Both the position numbers and the translations under genes were made by a program. A DNA stretch of 47,664 bases, taken from Acholeplasmatales bacterium (lineage in GTDB: Bacteria; Bacillota_I; Bacilli_A; Acholeplasmatales; Anaeroplasmataceae). Below the pieces are notes generated by a model that saw nothing but the letters and a program-made list of their open reading frames with translations, was not told the DNA's origin and did not search any database. Shown here one piece after another: positions 483 to 7,947 of this stretch. The stretch is from the NCBI GenBank assembly GCA_016288855.1, contig JAEELJ010000065.1, positions 1 to 47,664 of the forward strand, read 5' to 3'. Position 1 is the stretch's first letter. Every line of letters starts with the position of its first letter.

Positions 483-1280
483 ATGTTTTTAACACAACCT
501 GAAACTTTTGTTGAGCAACTATGTAGAATGCTAGACGAAGCGCCTCAAGTAATACGTATTATAATTGATTGCTATTTAGCTTTAATTGTTATTACTGCAG
601 TTGTATATACTGCTATAAAATATAAAAAGGCCCTAAATTTGTTTATTGTTGGACTTTTATTGTTATCAATATATTTTGTCTCATCTTGGTTAGATTTTGA
701 AATATCTAAAGCAATTTATGGTGCTATATTACCTTCATACATTGTTATATGCTTTATTCTATTAGCACCAGAATTAAGACGTTCTATGGAATATCATAAA
801 AAAGAAGACTTAAAAAAGACTGAAATGATGCTAACACCAACACAAGCAACAAAGGATGCAATTTGTGATGCAGTATTTGATATGTCTAGTGAAAAGGTTG
901 GAGCATTAATCACTATAGAATTACAAATGTCTTTGGATCAATATGCAGAAAGAGCTATTACATTAAACTCAGATATATCTAAAGAATTACTTGAACAAAT
1001 ATTCATTAAAGATTCACCTCTTCATGATGGTGGTGTTATCATTCGTGGTAATAAGATTATTTGTGCAGCCGCATATTATACATTAACAGAAGACCAATCA
1101 TTAGACAAAACAGTTGGTTCTCGTCACCGTGCAGGTGTAGGTATTTCTGAATTAACTGACTCAGTTACAATTATTGTTTCAGAAGAAACTGGTGATGTAC
1201 ATGTTGCAACATCAGGATTTATGAAACCTATGGAATCTAAAGCAGAACTTGCTGATTATCTAAATATGACATTAAATTAA
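483..1280 (+). CDS. cdaA: Diadenylate cyclase CdaA (c-di-AMP synthase)
   Basis: Makes the second messenger c-di-AMP from two ATP at the cytoplasmic membrane. The 265-residue protein has three membrane helices (about 25-45, 52-69, 79-96) followed by a DisA_N-type cyclase domain. The active-site blocks are visible: HDGG at 181-184 and RHR at 214-216. The first block normally reads DGA, so Ala to Gly is a small departure. GGAGG sits 8 bases before the ATG. First gene of a close-packed operon. The usual partner, the regulator CdaR with YbbR repeats, is absent; a 58-residue membrane protein and a degenerate GGDEF protein follow instead. Family assignment is secure; full activity is inferred. Confidence 0.95.
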   Translation: MFLTQPETFVEQLCRMLDEAPQVIRIIIDCYLALIVITAVVYTAIKYKKALNLFIVGLLLLSIYFVSSWLDFEISKAIYGAILPSYIVICFILLAPELRRSMEYHKKEDLKKTEMMLTPTQATKDAICDAVFDMSSEKVGALITIELQMSLDQYAERAITLNSDISKELLEQIFIKDSPLHDGGVIIRGNKIICAAAYYTLTEDQSLDKTVGSRHRAGVGISELTDSVTIIVSEETGDVHVATSGFMKPMESKAELADYLNMTLN

Positions 1281-1295
1281 AAGGAGGAAGCTTAT

Positions 1296-1472
1296 ATGAA
1301 AGTTTTAAAAATGATTGCACAAATACTTTTAGCACCATTTGTTCTTTTAGTTAGAGCTAATGCTAAGCCTTCTCCTAACAAGAAAGTAAGCGTACTTCTT
1401 GTAGCATTAGTATCAGCATTACTAATTGCGGTTTTAGTTTTAATTTACTATCATCAGTATATTATAGGTTAA
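1296..1472 (+). CDS. Small single-span membrane protein, 58 aa
   Basis: Short frame with a strong ribosome binding site (AAGGAGG at 1281-1287) opening 15 bases after the cdaA stop, with AAGGAG for the next gene overlapping its end. The product begins MKVLKMIAQILLAPF, has a basic turn (KPSPNKK) and then one hydrophobic helix (about 34-53) ending YYHQYIIG. The first segment is also amphipathic/hydrophobic, so two membrane contacts are possible. I do not recognise a family. Its place between the c-di-AMP synthase and a membrane signalling protein suggests a small accessory subunit, which is inference only. Confidence 0.7.
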   Translation: MKVLKMIAQILLAPFVLLVRANAKPSPNKKVSVLLVALVSALLIAVLVLIYYHQYIIG

Positions 1473-1486
1473 GGAGAATAAATAAT

Positions 1487-3073
1487 ATGGTGTTAGAGGG
1501 ATTTAATATTTGGGAATTTATTAACCAAAGTCCAATAATTCCACTTGTAATATCAGCTATAATATTTATCATTATTTTGGTACAATGTTTTGTTAGACAT
1601 ATATTTTATAAAGCTAGATTCATAATAACTTCTGCAGTAGTTTTTGCTGCAGCATTATTATTTATCTTCTACGATAAAATTAAGAATAGTGAAAATGGAT
1701 TATGGCTTAATATAGCAAATGTTTCATTTATTTCTTTAGAATTAATATCTTTATTAACATTATTCTTTACAGTTGATTTTTCATTATCTAATGAAAGAAT
1801 ATCAAGAGAATTAACAAAGTCTTTAAATGAAACAAAATATTATGTTTTACTTGATAAGAAGGATAGAGTTAAGGAAATGTCTAGTCTATTAGAAAAGGAT
1901 TTAGATTATCAGGATGGAACATATTATAAAAAGAATTTCTTTGATGTCTTAGAAAAGAAATATAGAATTATTGGAATGAACGATGAAGAAGCTTATAAGG
2001 CTGATTTAAAAAAGTTCTATAATCATTATGGTAATAAAGTAGAAGAAGGCAAGGTTAATAAGGTTATATTTAATCTTGAGGATGATAATGCAGTACATTC
2101 TGCAATGTATTTTAATGAGACAACAATATTTGTTAGTGGCAAATATAAAGGAAGAATACTTATTGGCGATAAAAAAGATAAGAATTCTTTAATTGGAGTA
2201 GAATCTGAGCTTGCAGAAACAAAGGAAAACTTAGATTTAATTTCTGAAAGATTTATTGTTGTATTAAATAATTCTAGTGATGGCATATTCTTTAATACAT
2301 TATCAAGTAAGCAAATATGGTTTAATGATGTTTTAGTTAAAAAACTAAATTTAGATGGTAATACAATGTCTTCAAATGAATTCTATAAAAACATTGCGCC
2401 TGAGAATTTATCGTTATATCAAGAACAAATGTCTAGCTTAACAAATGAAGAATATTCTATAACATATAAATATAACACAGGTGGTGGTTATGTTTATATT
2501 AAGGAATTCGGTAAAAAAATAGTTACAGATAATGTAGTTGAGCTTTGCGGTATTATGCAGGTATTTGGAGATTATGGTTACCAAAAAACTGATTCTCCAC
2601 TTGATCAGGTTGGAGACGAAATGAAAATGAAGCTTCAGCTAAGAAAGCTTATTAATGAAGGTAAAACATTTGAGGTTGTATATTTCAAGTGTGAATCTAT
2701 TCCTGAAATAAATGAAGCATATGGTCGTGCAATTGGAAATGAAATGCTATCACAATATGTAAAAGTAATTCATGAAAACTTTGTATCTGATGATATGATT
2801 TATAGAGTTACAGGATTAGAGTTTGTAGCATTTATCACTAATTACAATAGAATGGAAGCATTAAAGGCTGGTTTAAATAATGAAGAAAAGCTATTACATG
2901 TTTCTGCAACATTTGGTGATAAGAAGATAACATCTGAAATTAAGATGGGAATTTCATTTACTAATGATACTATGAATCCTTCTGATGTAATTACAAATGC
3001 TTATCAAGCTTTAAAGATTGCATCTAATGAACAATATGCTGCATCATTTGCATATTATAAGGATATTAAATAA
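1487..3073 (+). CDS. Membrane protein with degenerate GGDEF domain
   Basis: A 528-residue protein with three predicted membrane helices (about 17-36, 45-62, 73-95), a long middle region that may hold a PAS-like fold (about 250-360), and a C-terminal GGDEF-like domain (about 395-510). The catalytic GGDEF signature reads TGLEF at 442-446, so diguanylate cyclase activity is unlikely. The layout (membrane helices, PAS-like part, degenerate GGDEF) resembles GdpP, the c-di-AMP phosphodiesterase, but the DHH/DHHA1 catalytic half is missing. Position in the cdaA operon points to a c-di-AMP-related sensor or regulator; that is inference. Its stop overlaps the next start by one base (TAATG). Confidence 0.75.
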   Translation: MVLEGFNIWEFINQSPIIPLVISAIIFIIILVQCFVRHIFYKARFIITSAVVFAAALLFIFYDKIKNSENGLWLNIANVSFISLELISLLTLFFTVDFSLSNERISRELTKSLNETKYYVLLDKKDRVKEMSSLLEKDLDYQDGTYYKKNFFDVLEKKYRIIGMNDEEAYKADLKKFYNHYGNKVEEGKVNKVIFNLEDDNAVHSAMYFNETTIFVSGKYKGRILIGDKKDKNSLIGVESELAETKENLDLISERFIVVLNNSSDGIFFNTLSSKQIWFNDVLVKKLNLDGNTMSSNEFYKNIAPENLSLYQEQMSSLTNEEYSITYKYNTGGGYVYIKEFGKKIVTDNVVELCGIMQVFGDYGYQKTDSPLDQVGDEMKMKLQLRKLINEGKTFEVVYFKCESIPEINEAYGRAIGNEMLSQYVKVIHENFVSDDMIYRVTGLEFVAFITNYNRMEALKAGLNNEEKLLHVSATFGDKKITSEIKMGISFTNDTMNPSDVITNAYQALKIASNEQYAASFAYYKDIK

Positions 3074-5196: not shown

Positions 5197-5997
5197 ATGG
5201 TTATTAATTGTGAAAAGGGAATGTATCTTTTAGAAAGAAATTATAGAGATGCATTTAATCTTGAAGAATTCCAAAGAAAATACTTTGAAGAATTCTTTGA
5301 TAAATATGAATATATTGTTGGTGATATTTCATCTTCAATACTAAGATTAAAAGGTTTTGATACTAATCCAAAAAGTAAAAACTATTTTAAGCTTATTGAT
5401 GAATATTTAGATAAGTCTTGTGCTTTTGGTTGCCCTTTTTTCGTTTTAAAAAGGATACATACACAAGAAGAATATAAAAAGCTTGAAAATATTGAAATGA
5501 ACAATGAAGTTCCTAGAATTATTGTTAAGGATATGCCAAAGGAAAACTTTGATAAGGAATCATTAATCTTAGATACTAATCCTGCATCAAATCCACATAT
5601 AGTAATTGATCCGGAGAAGCTTCAAAAGATTAATCTTGGTACATTACCACAGGATTTAAAGGACGATAAGGGTGATTTAGGTTATAATAAATCATTTGGT
5701 AAGCCAAATGGCAAAAAGCCAGAAGAAAAGGTATTAGAAAATGTTGAAACATATGTTTCTGCATCTCCTGATTTTGATCCTTCTAAAAAGCAAAATTCTA
5801 AGAAGAACAATAATAGACAAAACCAAAACAATAGAAATCAAAACAACAATAATAATAAACAAAATCAAAATAATAATAACAATAATAAGCAAAATCAAAA
5901 TAATAGAAATAATAACAACAATAATAAGCAATTTAATAAAAATAATAACCAAAATAATAATAAGAATAAAGAAAACAAACAAAATAGAGGTAAATAA
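5197..5997 (+). CDS. yutD: YutD family protein with Asn-rich tail
   Basis: The first 92 or so residues match the YutD (DUF1027) family: the block DKYEYIVGD, then LRLKGF, and CAFGCPFFVLKRI near 78-90. B. subtilis YutD is little more than this domain and its function is not settled. Here the protein is 266 residues: a linker (about 93-195) and then a tail of about 70 residues (from about 197) made almost only of Asn, Gln and Lys with a few Arg. The tail is in frame and ends at a normal stop two bases before the next open frame, so it is probably real, but its DNA is a low-complexity AAT/AAC/CAA tract. The tail may bind RNA or be intrinsically disordered; that is a guess. Confidence 0.85.
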   Translation: MVINCEKGMYLLERNYRDAFNLEEFQRKYFEEFFDKYEYIVGDISSSILRLKGFDTNPKSKNYFKLIDEYLDKSCAFGCPFFVLKRIHTQEEYKKLENIEMNNEVPRIIVKDMPKENFDKESLILDTNPASNPHIVIDPEKLQKINLGTLPQDLKDDKGDLGYNKSFGKPNGKKPEEKVLENVETYVSASPDFDPSKKQNSKKNNNRQNQNNRNQNNNNNKQNQNNNNNNKQNQNNRNNNNNNKQFNKNNNQNNNKNKENKQNRGK

Positions 5998-6285: not shown

Positions 6286-7947
6286 ATGGAAAAAGCATTT
6301 GAAGCTATAACATGGCGTGTAATAGCAATCATTATTATAGCCTTTGCAGGTTTAATAATTGCACAACTTGTAAAGTTTATAATATATTCAATTTCATATC
6401 GTAAGCCAATGTGGAAGATGTTGTATCAAACTGGTGGATCTCCATCATCTCATACGTCAATGATTGTTGCATTTCTAGTCTCAATGTTTTTGATTCAATT
6501 ACTTGAATTAGGATATTTAGATTGGAGTTTTGCAGTTGCAATAGTATTTGGAATTATTGTAATTCATGATGTAAAGGGATTGGGCTATGAGTCTTCAAGA
6601 CATGCCATATTAATCAATAAGATTGTTGATGGTATGGACGAAGATAAGAAAAATGATTTAGGATTAGATAATGAACCAAAATTATCTACAGATATTGGTA
6701 ACAATAGTACGCACGTAAAAATAGGTGCAATTATTGGTGCAATTGTTGGTGCAATAGGTACTTTAATTATTGAACAAATGTCTAAATCATCAATTAGAGA
6801 GCTAAAGATTTTTACAGGTAATATTAAATCAATTAATAGTATGCTTCAAGAGCGTACTATGGTTGTTTTCATCTTAGGTGTTATTGCGATGGTATTTGCT
6901 CAATTATTGAAATTTATTATTCATTCAATAGTTGAAAAGAAGCCTATGTGGAAAATGTTATATAGTAGTGGTGGTTTCCCATCTAGTAATGTAGCATTTA
7001 TACTAGCTTTTACAGTTGCAATGTTTTTAATTCAATTTAAAGAATTAAATTATTTAGATTGGAGCTTTGGTGTTGCAATAGTATTAGGATTTATATCTAT
7101 TCATGATGCTTTAGGTGTTAGATATCAAACATCAAGACAGGCTAAGGTGTTGAATAAGGTTTTAATGGATATGACCCCTGAAAAGAAGCAGGAGCTAGGT
7201 ATTAAAGATGATAACCTAAGAGAACTTTTAGGTCATAGACCTGGTGAAGTTTTAGTTGGTGCTTTAATAGGTATTACAATTGGTATTATTGGCTTTTTCA
7301 TAATGGAGCAAATTTTAGGTAGTACAGTTACTATTAATATTGCTCCTCAGCAGCAAAATGTTAATAATTTAGTTCAATTTATTACAATGCGAGCAATGCT
7401 AATATTCATTATTGCAACATTTGGTATGCTAGCAGCTCAATTTATGAAATTAGGAATATATTCATATATCTATAAGAAGCCTGCATGGGATATGTTACAT
7501 TCAACAGGAGGCTTCCCATCAAGTCATACATCATTTGTTGTATCATTGATTACAGCATTAGGTATGATTCAATTTAGAGATATGGGATATTTAGATTGGT
7601 CATTTAGTGTATCTTTAACATTTGGTATTTTAACATTACATGATGCAATGGGGGTTAGATATGAGGCAACAAAGCATGCAATAATATTAAATAAGCTAGT
7701 TAAAACATTACCTGATGAGAAAAAGGAAGCATTAGGATTAGTTAATCAACCTATATTAAAAGAATTATTAGGACATAAAAAATATGAAGTGTTTGCCGGA
7801 GCTATATTAGGGGTAGCTGTTGGTATGTTAGGATTTGTTATTGCTATAACTTGTTTCTGTGGATATGTTAATACACCAAATCCAGAAAACATTCCAGTAA
7901 TGACAACTACTGAAATATTTAAAAACTTTGTTTTCTATTTAAAATAA
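6286..7947 (+). CDS. Triplicated divergent PAP2 (DUF212) membrane protein
   Basis: A 553-residue membrane protein built from three copies of the divergent-PAP2 family domain (YuiD/DUF212), normally a single-domain protein of about 150-160 residues. Copies span roughly 10-165, 190-343 and 367-520, each with KKPxWxMLxxxGG, PSSxx, YLDWSF and HDxxGxxY blocks. Copies 1 and 3 keep PSSHT (H56 and H414) and RHA/KHA; copy 2 reads PSSN (N235) and RQA, so it has probably lost any acid phosphatase-type chemistry. The substrate is unknown; PAP2-type enzymes act on lipid phosphates. Strong GGGAGTGG ribosome binding site. Sits between the NifU-like gene and pgi. Confidence 0.9.
   Translation: MEKAFEAITWRVIAIIIIAFAGLIIAQLVKFIIYSISYRKPMWKMLYQTGGSPSSHTSMIVAFLVSMFLIQLLELGYLDWSFAVAIVFGIIVIHDVKGLGYESSRHAILINKIVDGMDEDKKNDLGLDNEPKLSTDIGNNSTHVKIGAIIGAIVGAIGTLIIEQMSKSSIRELKIFTGNIKSINSMLQERTMVVFILGVIAMVFAQLLKFIIHSIVEKKPMWKMLYSSGGFPSSNVAFILAFTVAMFLIQFKELNYLDWSFGVAIVLGFISIHDALGVRYQTSRQAKVLNKVLMDMTPEKKQELGIKDDNLRELLGHRPGEVLVGALIGITIGIIGFFIMEQILGSTVTINIAPQQQNVNNLVQFITMRAMLIFIIATFGMLAAQFMKLGIYSYIYKKPAWDMLHSTGGFPSSHTSFVVSLITALGMIQFRDMGYLDWSFSVSLTFGILTLHDAMGVRYEATKHAIILNKLVKTLPDEKKEALGLVNQPILKELLGHKKYEVFAGAILGVAVGMLGFVIAITCFCGYVNTPNPENIPVMTTTEIFKNFVFYLK

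Follow-up and report, generated by a model that had tools for sequence, protein, structure and literature searches.

One gene of a rumen bacterium encodes three DUF212 domains in a single membrane protein. To judge from the residues kept and lost, probably only the C-terminal domain is catalytic, and the two domains before it are pseudoenzymes that have been maintained. The gene is the product of an in-place triplication of DUF212, restricted to one lineage, in which one copy is complete and the other two are degenerate yet conserved. DUF212 is a common membrane family that is functionally uncharacterised, and here two of three linked copies are changed at the expected catalytic residues.

Domain composition of the triple gene

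The gene lies at positions 6286..7947 of the forward strand of the window, by which we mean the whole stretch of 47,664 nucleotides that was analysed, and forms an open frame from ATG to stop with 553 amino acids. A profile search with PF02681 gives three matches in the same frame, all above the family's gathering cut-off of 26.5 bits: copy 1 at 6328-6747 (86.9 bits), copy 2 at 6865-7281 (106.7 bits) and copy 3 at 7402-7821 (115.7 bits), all on the forward strand. For the whole 553-residue protein the E-value is 2.5e-87. The reading of the earlier note, three recognisable DUF212 copies in one chain, is thus borne out by the profile search. The usual, though not obligatory, form of DUF212 is a single domain of about 150-180 residues. 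GGxPSS[HN] motifs start at residues 50, 229 and 408, i.e., with a period of 179 residues, and the period is identical in the second genome that carries the triple. Within this genome the copies share 40-45% identity at the protein level and about 63-65% at the DNA level. Twelve membrane helices are predicted, four per copy. No convincing internal translation start that would release copy 3 alone was found in the open reading frame.

Distribution and origin

The triple is present in two related rumen bacteria, the one analysed here and G004, which are metagenome-assembled genomes (MAGs) of different species of one genus. The two triple proteins are 83% identical; carried by two MAGs of different species at this distance, the gene is not an assembly artefact. 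DUF212 occurs in 16 of the 27 genomes of the genus, 14 with one single-domain gene and two with the triple. The surveys covered four overlapping sets, namely 120 relatives and draws of 160, 395 and 392 genomes from the order, the class and the phylum; no other frame with at least two DUF212 matches was found in these several hundred related genomes. As the phylum set gave no DUF212 matches outside the class, this result speaks for the class and not for distant phyla. Scans of genome contigs for the triple returned only the same second MAG, viral contigs had none, and matches in plasmid records reached at most about half of the triple query. The survey of relatives for the fusion that had been proposed with the first reading of the gene ends with one other species carrying the triple, and with DUF212 as a single-domain gene elsewhere in the genomes searched. 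A separate observation concerns G191, where two DUF212 genes lie about 1.3 kb apart (G191:C1:1462562-1464701), the second one weak (59.9 bits); these are possibly an unfused tandem pair.

The neighbourhood of the triple (yutD-like, NifU, DUF212, pgi) is the slot of the single gene in relatives. There, the single gene lies 3' of a NifU-like gene, which itself follows a YutD-like gene; within the genus ispF and ispD usually precede it as well, and on contigs long enough to show it, pgi mostly comes next. In the tree, all six domains of the two triples group in a single clade (support 100/97) within the single genes of the genus, with copy 1 and copy 2 as sister groups (96/85). Two successive in-frame duplications of the resident gene at its own locus, before the two species split, explain both tree and synteny. 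Each unit of the triple resembles an ordinary DUF212 member such as YuiD of B. subtilis in being full-length, and the triple occupies the slot of the single gene. The triple differs in that three units share one chain and two of them lack invariant residues, whereas the other members in the searched genomes are single.

Two features of the same neighbourhood are recorded here in their own right. The YutD-like protein (window 5197-5997) consists of a YutD-like domain (residues 7-85) and, after it, a long low-complexity tail rich in Asn, Lys and Gln, which is shorter in G004. Directly upstream of the folate/ispD/ispF cluster, a diadenylate cyclase (DAC) gene is followed by a gene for a GGDEF protein (window 483-3073).

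Alignment to PAP2 phosphatases

The PAP2 signature reads K(X6)RP-(X12-54)-PSGH-(X31-54)-SR(X5)H(X3)D, with the His of motif C3 as the nucleophile (PMC7413402). The PAP2 model PF01569 scores 10.3 bits against the triple protein, below its cut-off of 27.2, and homology to PAP2 is seen only via profile-profile alignment. We compared the DUF212 singles with PAP2 proteins from the same genus using HHalign, whose E-values here are those of pairwise comparisons: 5.9e-5 against all PAP2 proteins and 2.2e-5 against one subfamily, with 0.13 for a reversed-sequence control. Two smaller PAP2 subsets gave weak values (0.007-0.018) with the same motif pairing where covered, and the outgroup subset alone placed HKPKEVLAG on HYFSDVIAG, again weakly (E 0.0017). 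The alignment pairs PSSH with PSGH of motif C2, the Arg of MGVR with the C3 Arg, and LGHxxxEVxGG with xHxxxDVxAG. The KHA block lies after the C3 Arg and ahead of the C3 His, in an insertion specific to DUF212. An assignment of C3 to an R-X5-H pattern of the KHA block was tried and dropped, as HHalign puts the C3 His-X3-acid on LGHxxxE.

In comparison with PAP2 lipid phosphatases such as PgpB, BcrC and YodM (PF01569), DUF212 shares an aligned C2, the C3 Arg, the C3 His-X3-acid and a similar four-helix core. It differs in that its C3 Arg and C3 His lie about 33 residues further apart, a stretch to which the KHA block belongs, and in having Glu in place of Asp, a loosely matched C1, and four helices versus six. 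Together with the losses in the copies, the alignment names a candidate for the phosphohistidine site, LGHxxxE rather than KHA.

Residues kept and lost in the three copies

As a reference we used 43 single-domain DUF212 relatives, in which 22 alignment columns are invariant. None of these 22 residues is lost in copy 3. Its motif 2 is PSSH (7516..7527, forward strand as for all sites below; residues 411-414), its C3 site LGHKKYE (7768..7788; residues 495-501) with both the His and the acid, and its KHA block lies at 7672..7680 (residues 463-465). Of the three copies, only copy 3 has the complete set of C2 His, C3 Arg and C3 His-X3-acid, where 33 inserted residues separate Arg and His. We presume copy 3 to be the catalytic domain.

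Copy 1 keeps 15 of the 22 residues and has lost seven (Arg to G100, Ala to S103, Leu to I110, Lys to S134, Leu to I137, His to N139, Glu to H143). It retains the C2 His in PSSH (6442..6453; residues 53-56) and an RHA block (6598..6606; residues 105-107), which belongs to the DUF212-specific insert. The site corresponding to LGHxxxE reads IGNNSTH (6694..6714; residues 137-143), and both C3 His and acid are gone. The missing Arg, His and Glu, which align to motif C3, are invariant in 43 of 43 singles. With the C3 His-X3-acid mapped to LGHxxxE, copy 1 lacks nucleophile, acid partner and Arg, and is predicted to be inactive.

Copy 2 keeps 18 of the 22 residues. Its four losses are His to N235, Ala to T282, His to Q285 and Lys to R312, so that motif 2 reads PSSN (6979..6990; residues 232-235) and the KHA block RQA (7135..7143; residues 284-286). 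The C3 residues Arg279, His317 and Glu321 are present, the latter two within LGHRPGE (7228..7248; residues 315-321). We predict this copy to be impaired or inactive.

Every loss in copies 1 and 2 is the identical replacement in both triple-bearing genomes; outside these losses, copy 1 of the second genome has PSTHT where this genome has PSSHT. The earlier note had read PSSHT and an R/K-H-A block in the outer copies, and PSSN and RQA in the middle one, correctly for this genome, where the blocks along the chain are SRHA, SRQA and TKHA. The asymmetry drawn from these readings holds for the changes of the middle copy; it overlooked the seven losses of the first copy and relied on the KHA block, which is not the C3 motif of PAP2.

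Selection on the copies

Between the two species, dN/dS is 0.098 for copy 1, 0.166 for copy 2 and 0.081 for copy 3, by simple counting with Jukes-Cantor correction at a dS of about 0.6-1.1. By this measure copy 2 diverges faster than copy 3. The values are comparable to those of the neighbouring genes (0.08-0.29). Looser parts of the triple are the C-terminal tail (0.52) and the second linker (0.43). The low ratios of copies 1 and 2 indicate that both are maintained. The proposal of an internal duplication followed by specialisation is hence sustained by tree, synteny and dN/dS alike.

Proposed mechanism and alternative explanations

We propose that a gene for a single DUF212 domain, similar to YuiD of B. 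subtilis, was duplicated twice to give a chain of three parallel four-helix domains. Copy 3 would be a phosphohydrolase of PAP2 type acting on a lipid phosphate or diphosphate. In its site, His497 would be the nucleophile and Glu501 its partner, His414 would serve as acid/base, and Arg458 would contact the phosphate. The other two copies would be pseudoenzyme domains retained as structural or regulatory partners. They probably stand in for subunits of an ancestral homo-oligomer, where ancestral oligomerisation is our assumption. If copy 3 turned out to need both of them as partners, it would follow that DUF212 proteins work as oligomers. A partial parallel exists in the diverged FITM duplicates of the PAP2 superfamily (PMC5798408), where after a duplication, too, one copy diverged at its catalytic residues. 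The FITM duplicates are separate genes, whereas in the triple the diverged copies and the intact one share a chain.

Copy 2 may still have some activity. It keeps the C3 residues, and the H163A mutant of PgpB, which lacks the C2 His, retains 27% activity on C55-PP against 0.09% on PGP (PMC7413402). These observations, and the purifying selection on copy 2, are what an enzyme of two specificities would lead one to expect, in which copy 3 is complete, copy 2 acts on pyrophosphates that need no protonation of the leaving group, and copy 1 is dead. Yet copy 2 is without the family-invariant His of the KHA block and, in part, the residues next to it, and it diverges faster than copy 3. We regard two specificities as unlikely, if the best of the alternatives.

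The earlier note had placed two possible active sites in copies 1 and 3, with copy 2 as a structural spacer. PSSH together with an R/K-H-A block in the outer copies, and the lack of either His in copy 2, agree with this. Against it speaks copy 1, where the C3 Arg (G100), His (N139) and Glu (H143), invariant in all singles, are replaced. In PgpB the C3 His is indispensable, as its mutant has undetectable activity, and the mutant of the C3 Asp retains about 0.1% (PMC7413402). Two outer sites are therefore quite improbable.

To a similar degree we doubt a composite second site, to which copy 1 would contribute the C2 side (PSSH, RHA) and copy 2 the C3 side (Arg, LGH, Glu). If true, it would be a covalent pseudo-hetero-oligomer with complementary degeneration readable inside one chain. 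Its appeal is that the two copies have their losses in different motifs, with the exception of alignment columns 128 and 160, which are changed in both. As a statistical case, complementary loss was rejected, the overlap being no smaller than expected by chance (P 0.92 in a hypergeometric test for an overlap of at most this size). Moreover, C2 and C3 share one helix bundle in PAP2 folds, so a helix swap would be required. A recent, non-functional expansion, of which copies 1 and 2 would be remnants in decay, would account for the lost invariant residues, but it is very improbable and largely refuted by purifying selection (dN/dS 0.10 and 0.17 at dS 0.7-1.1); in addition, both species have preserved the frame, the spacing and the length of the domains.

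Fold and membrane topology

The fold of the presumed catalytic domain is predicted well: AlphaFold models copy 3 alone as four long helices (pLDDT 90.6, pTM 0.83). When this model was compared with viral models by Foldseek, a PAP2 superfamily protein came out on top (probability 1.00, E 0.17) and a dolichyldiphosphatase in fourth place (0.98, E 0.31); against the PDB, PgpB is matched weakly (probability 0.38, E 2.6). The full-length model, made to see whether the repeats pack as a pseudo-trimer around a common pseudo-symmetry axis, has a pLDDT of 70 and a pTM of 0.56. Its low confidence arises because MAFFT puts the single-domain relatives on copy 3 only, and across copies 1 and 2 the alignment holds just two sequences. 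Foldseek returned nothing usable for the full-length model, and neither sequence nor profile search found a solved DUF212 structure.

With four helices per copy, all three copies should have the same, i.e., parallel, orientation. In the singles, the motif side carries on average 12.0 Lys and Arg residues versus 1.3 on the opposite side, in the same direction in 43 of 43 proteins; in length, too, the motif side exceeds the other (about 71 versus 22 residues). By the positive-inside rule this suggests that the motifs face the cytoplasm, opposite to PgpB-type enzymes.

Function and genomic setting

No tested activity of any DUF212 protein was found in the literature searched; the sole mentions of DUF212/YuiD function there are insertions in Listeria yuiD that appear in two transposon screens. 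The genome analysed here has a UppS homologue (PF01255) and three PAP2 genes. Neither the MraY/WecA family (PF00953) nor BacA (PF02673) has a match in this genome, which is rated 100% complete. With UppS present and the MraY family and BacA absent, we are likely dealing with a wall-less cell that still makes polyprenyl diphosphate. Across the genus, PF00953 is found in 5 of 27 genomes and BacA in 6 of 27, and loss of the cell wall seems to vary within this one genus. A role of DUF212 as a lipid phosphatase or diphosphatase at the cytosolic face would fit, with no substrate specifically tied to the family. A link to undecaprenyl recycling was considered and dropped as unspecific: G018 and several other genomes of the genus have neither BacA nor DUF212. 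Among the PAP2 proteins, one locus (L089, G023:C12:9000-11500) encodes a protein of 618 amino acids in which the PAP2 domain forms the end, after a large N-terminal extension.
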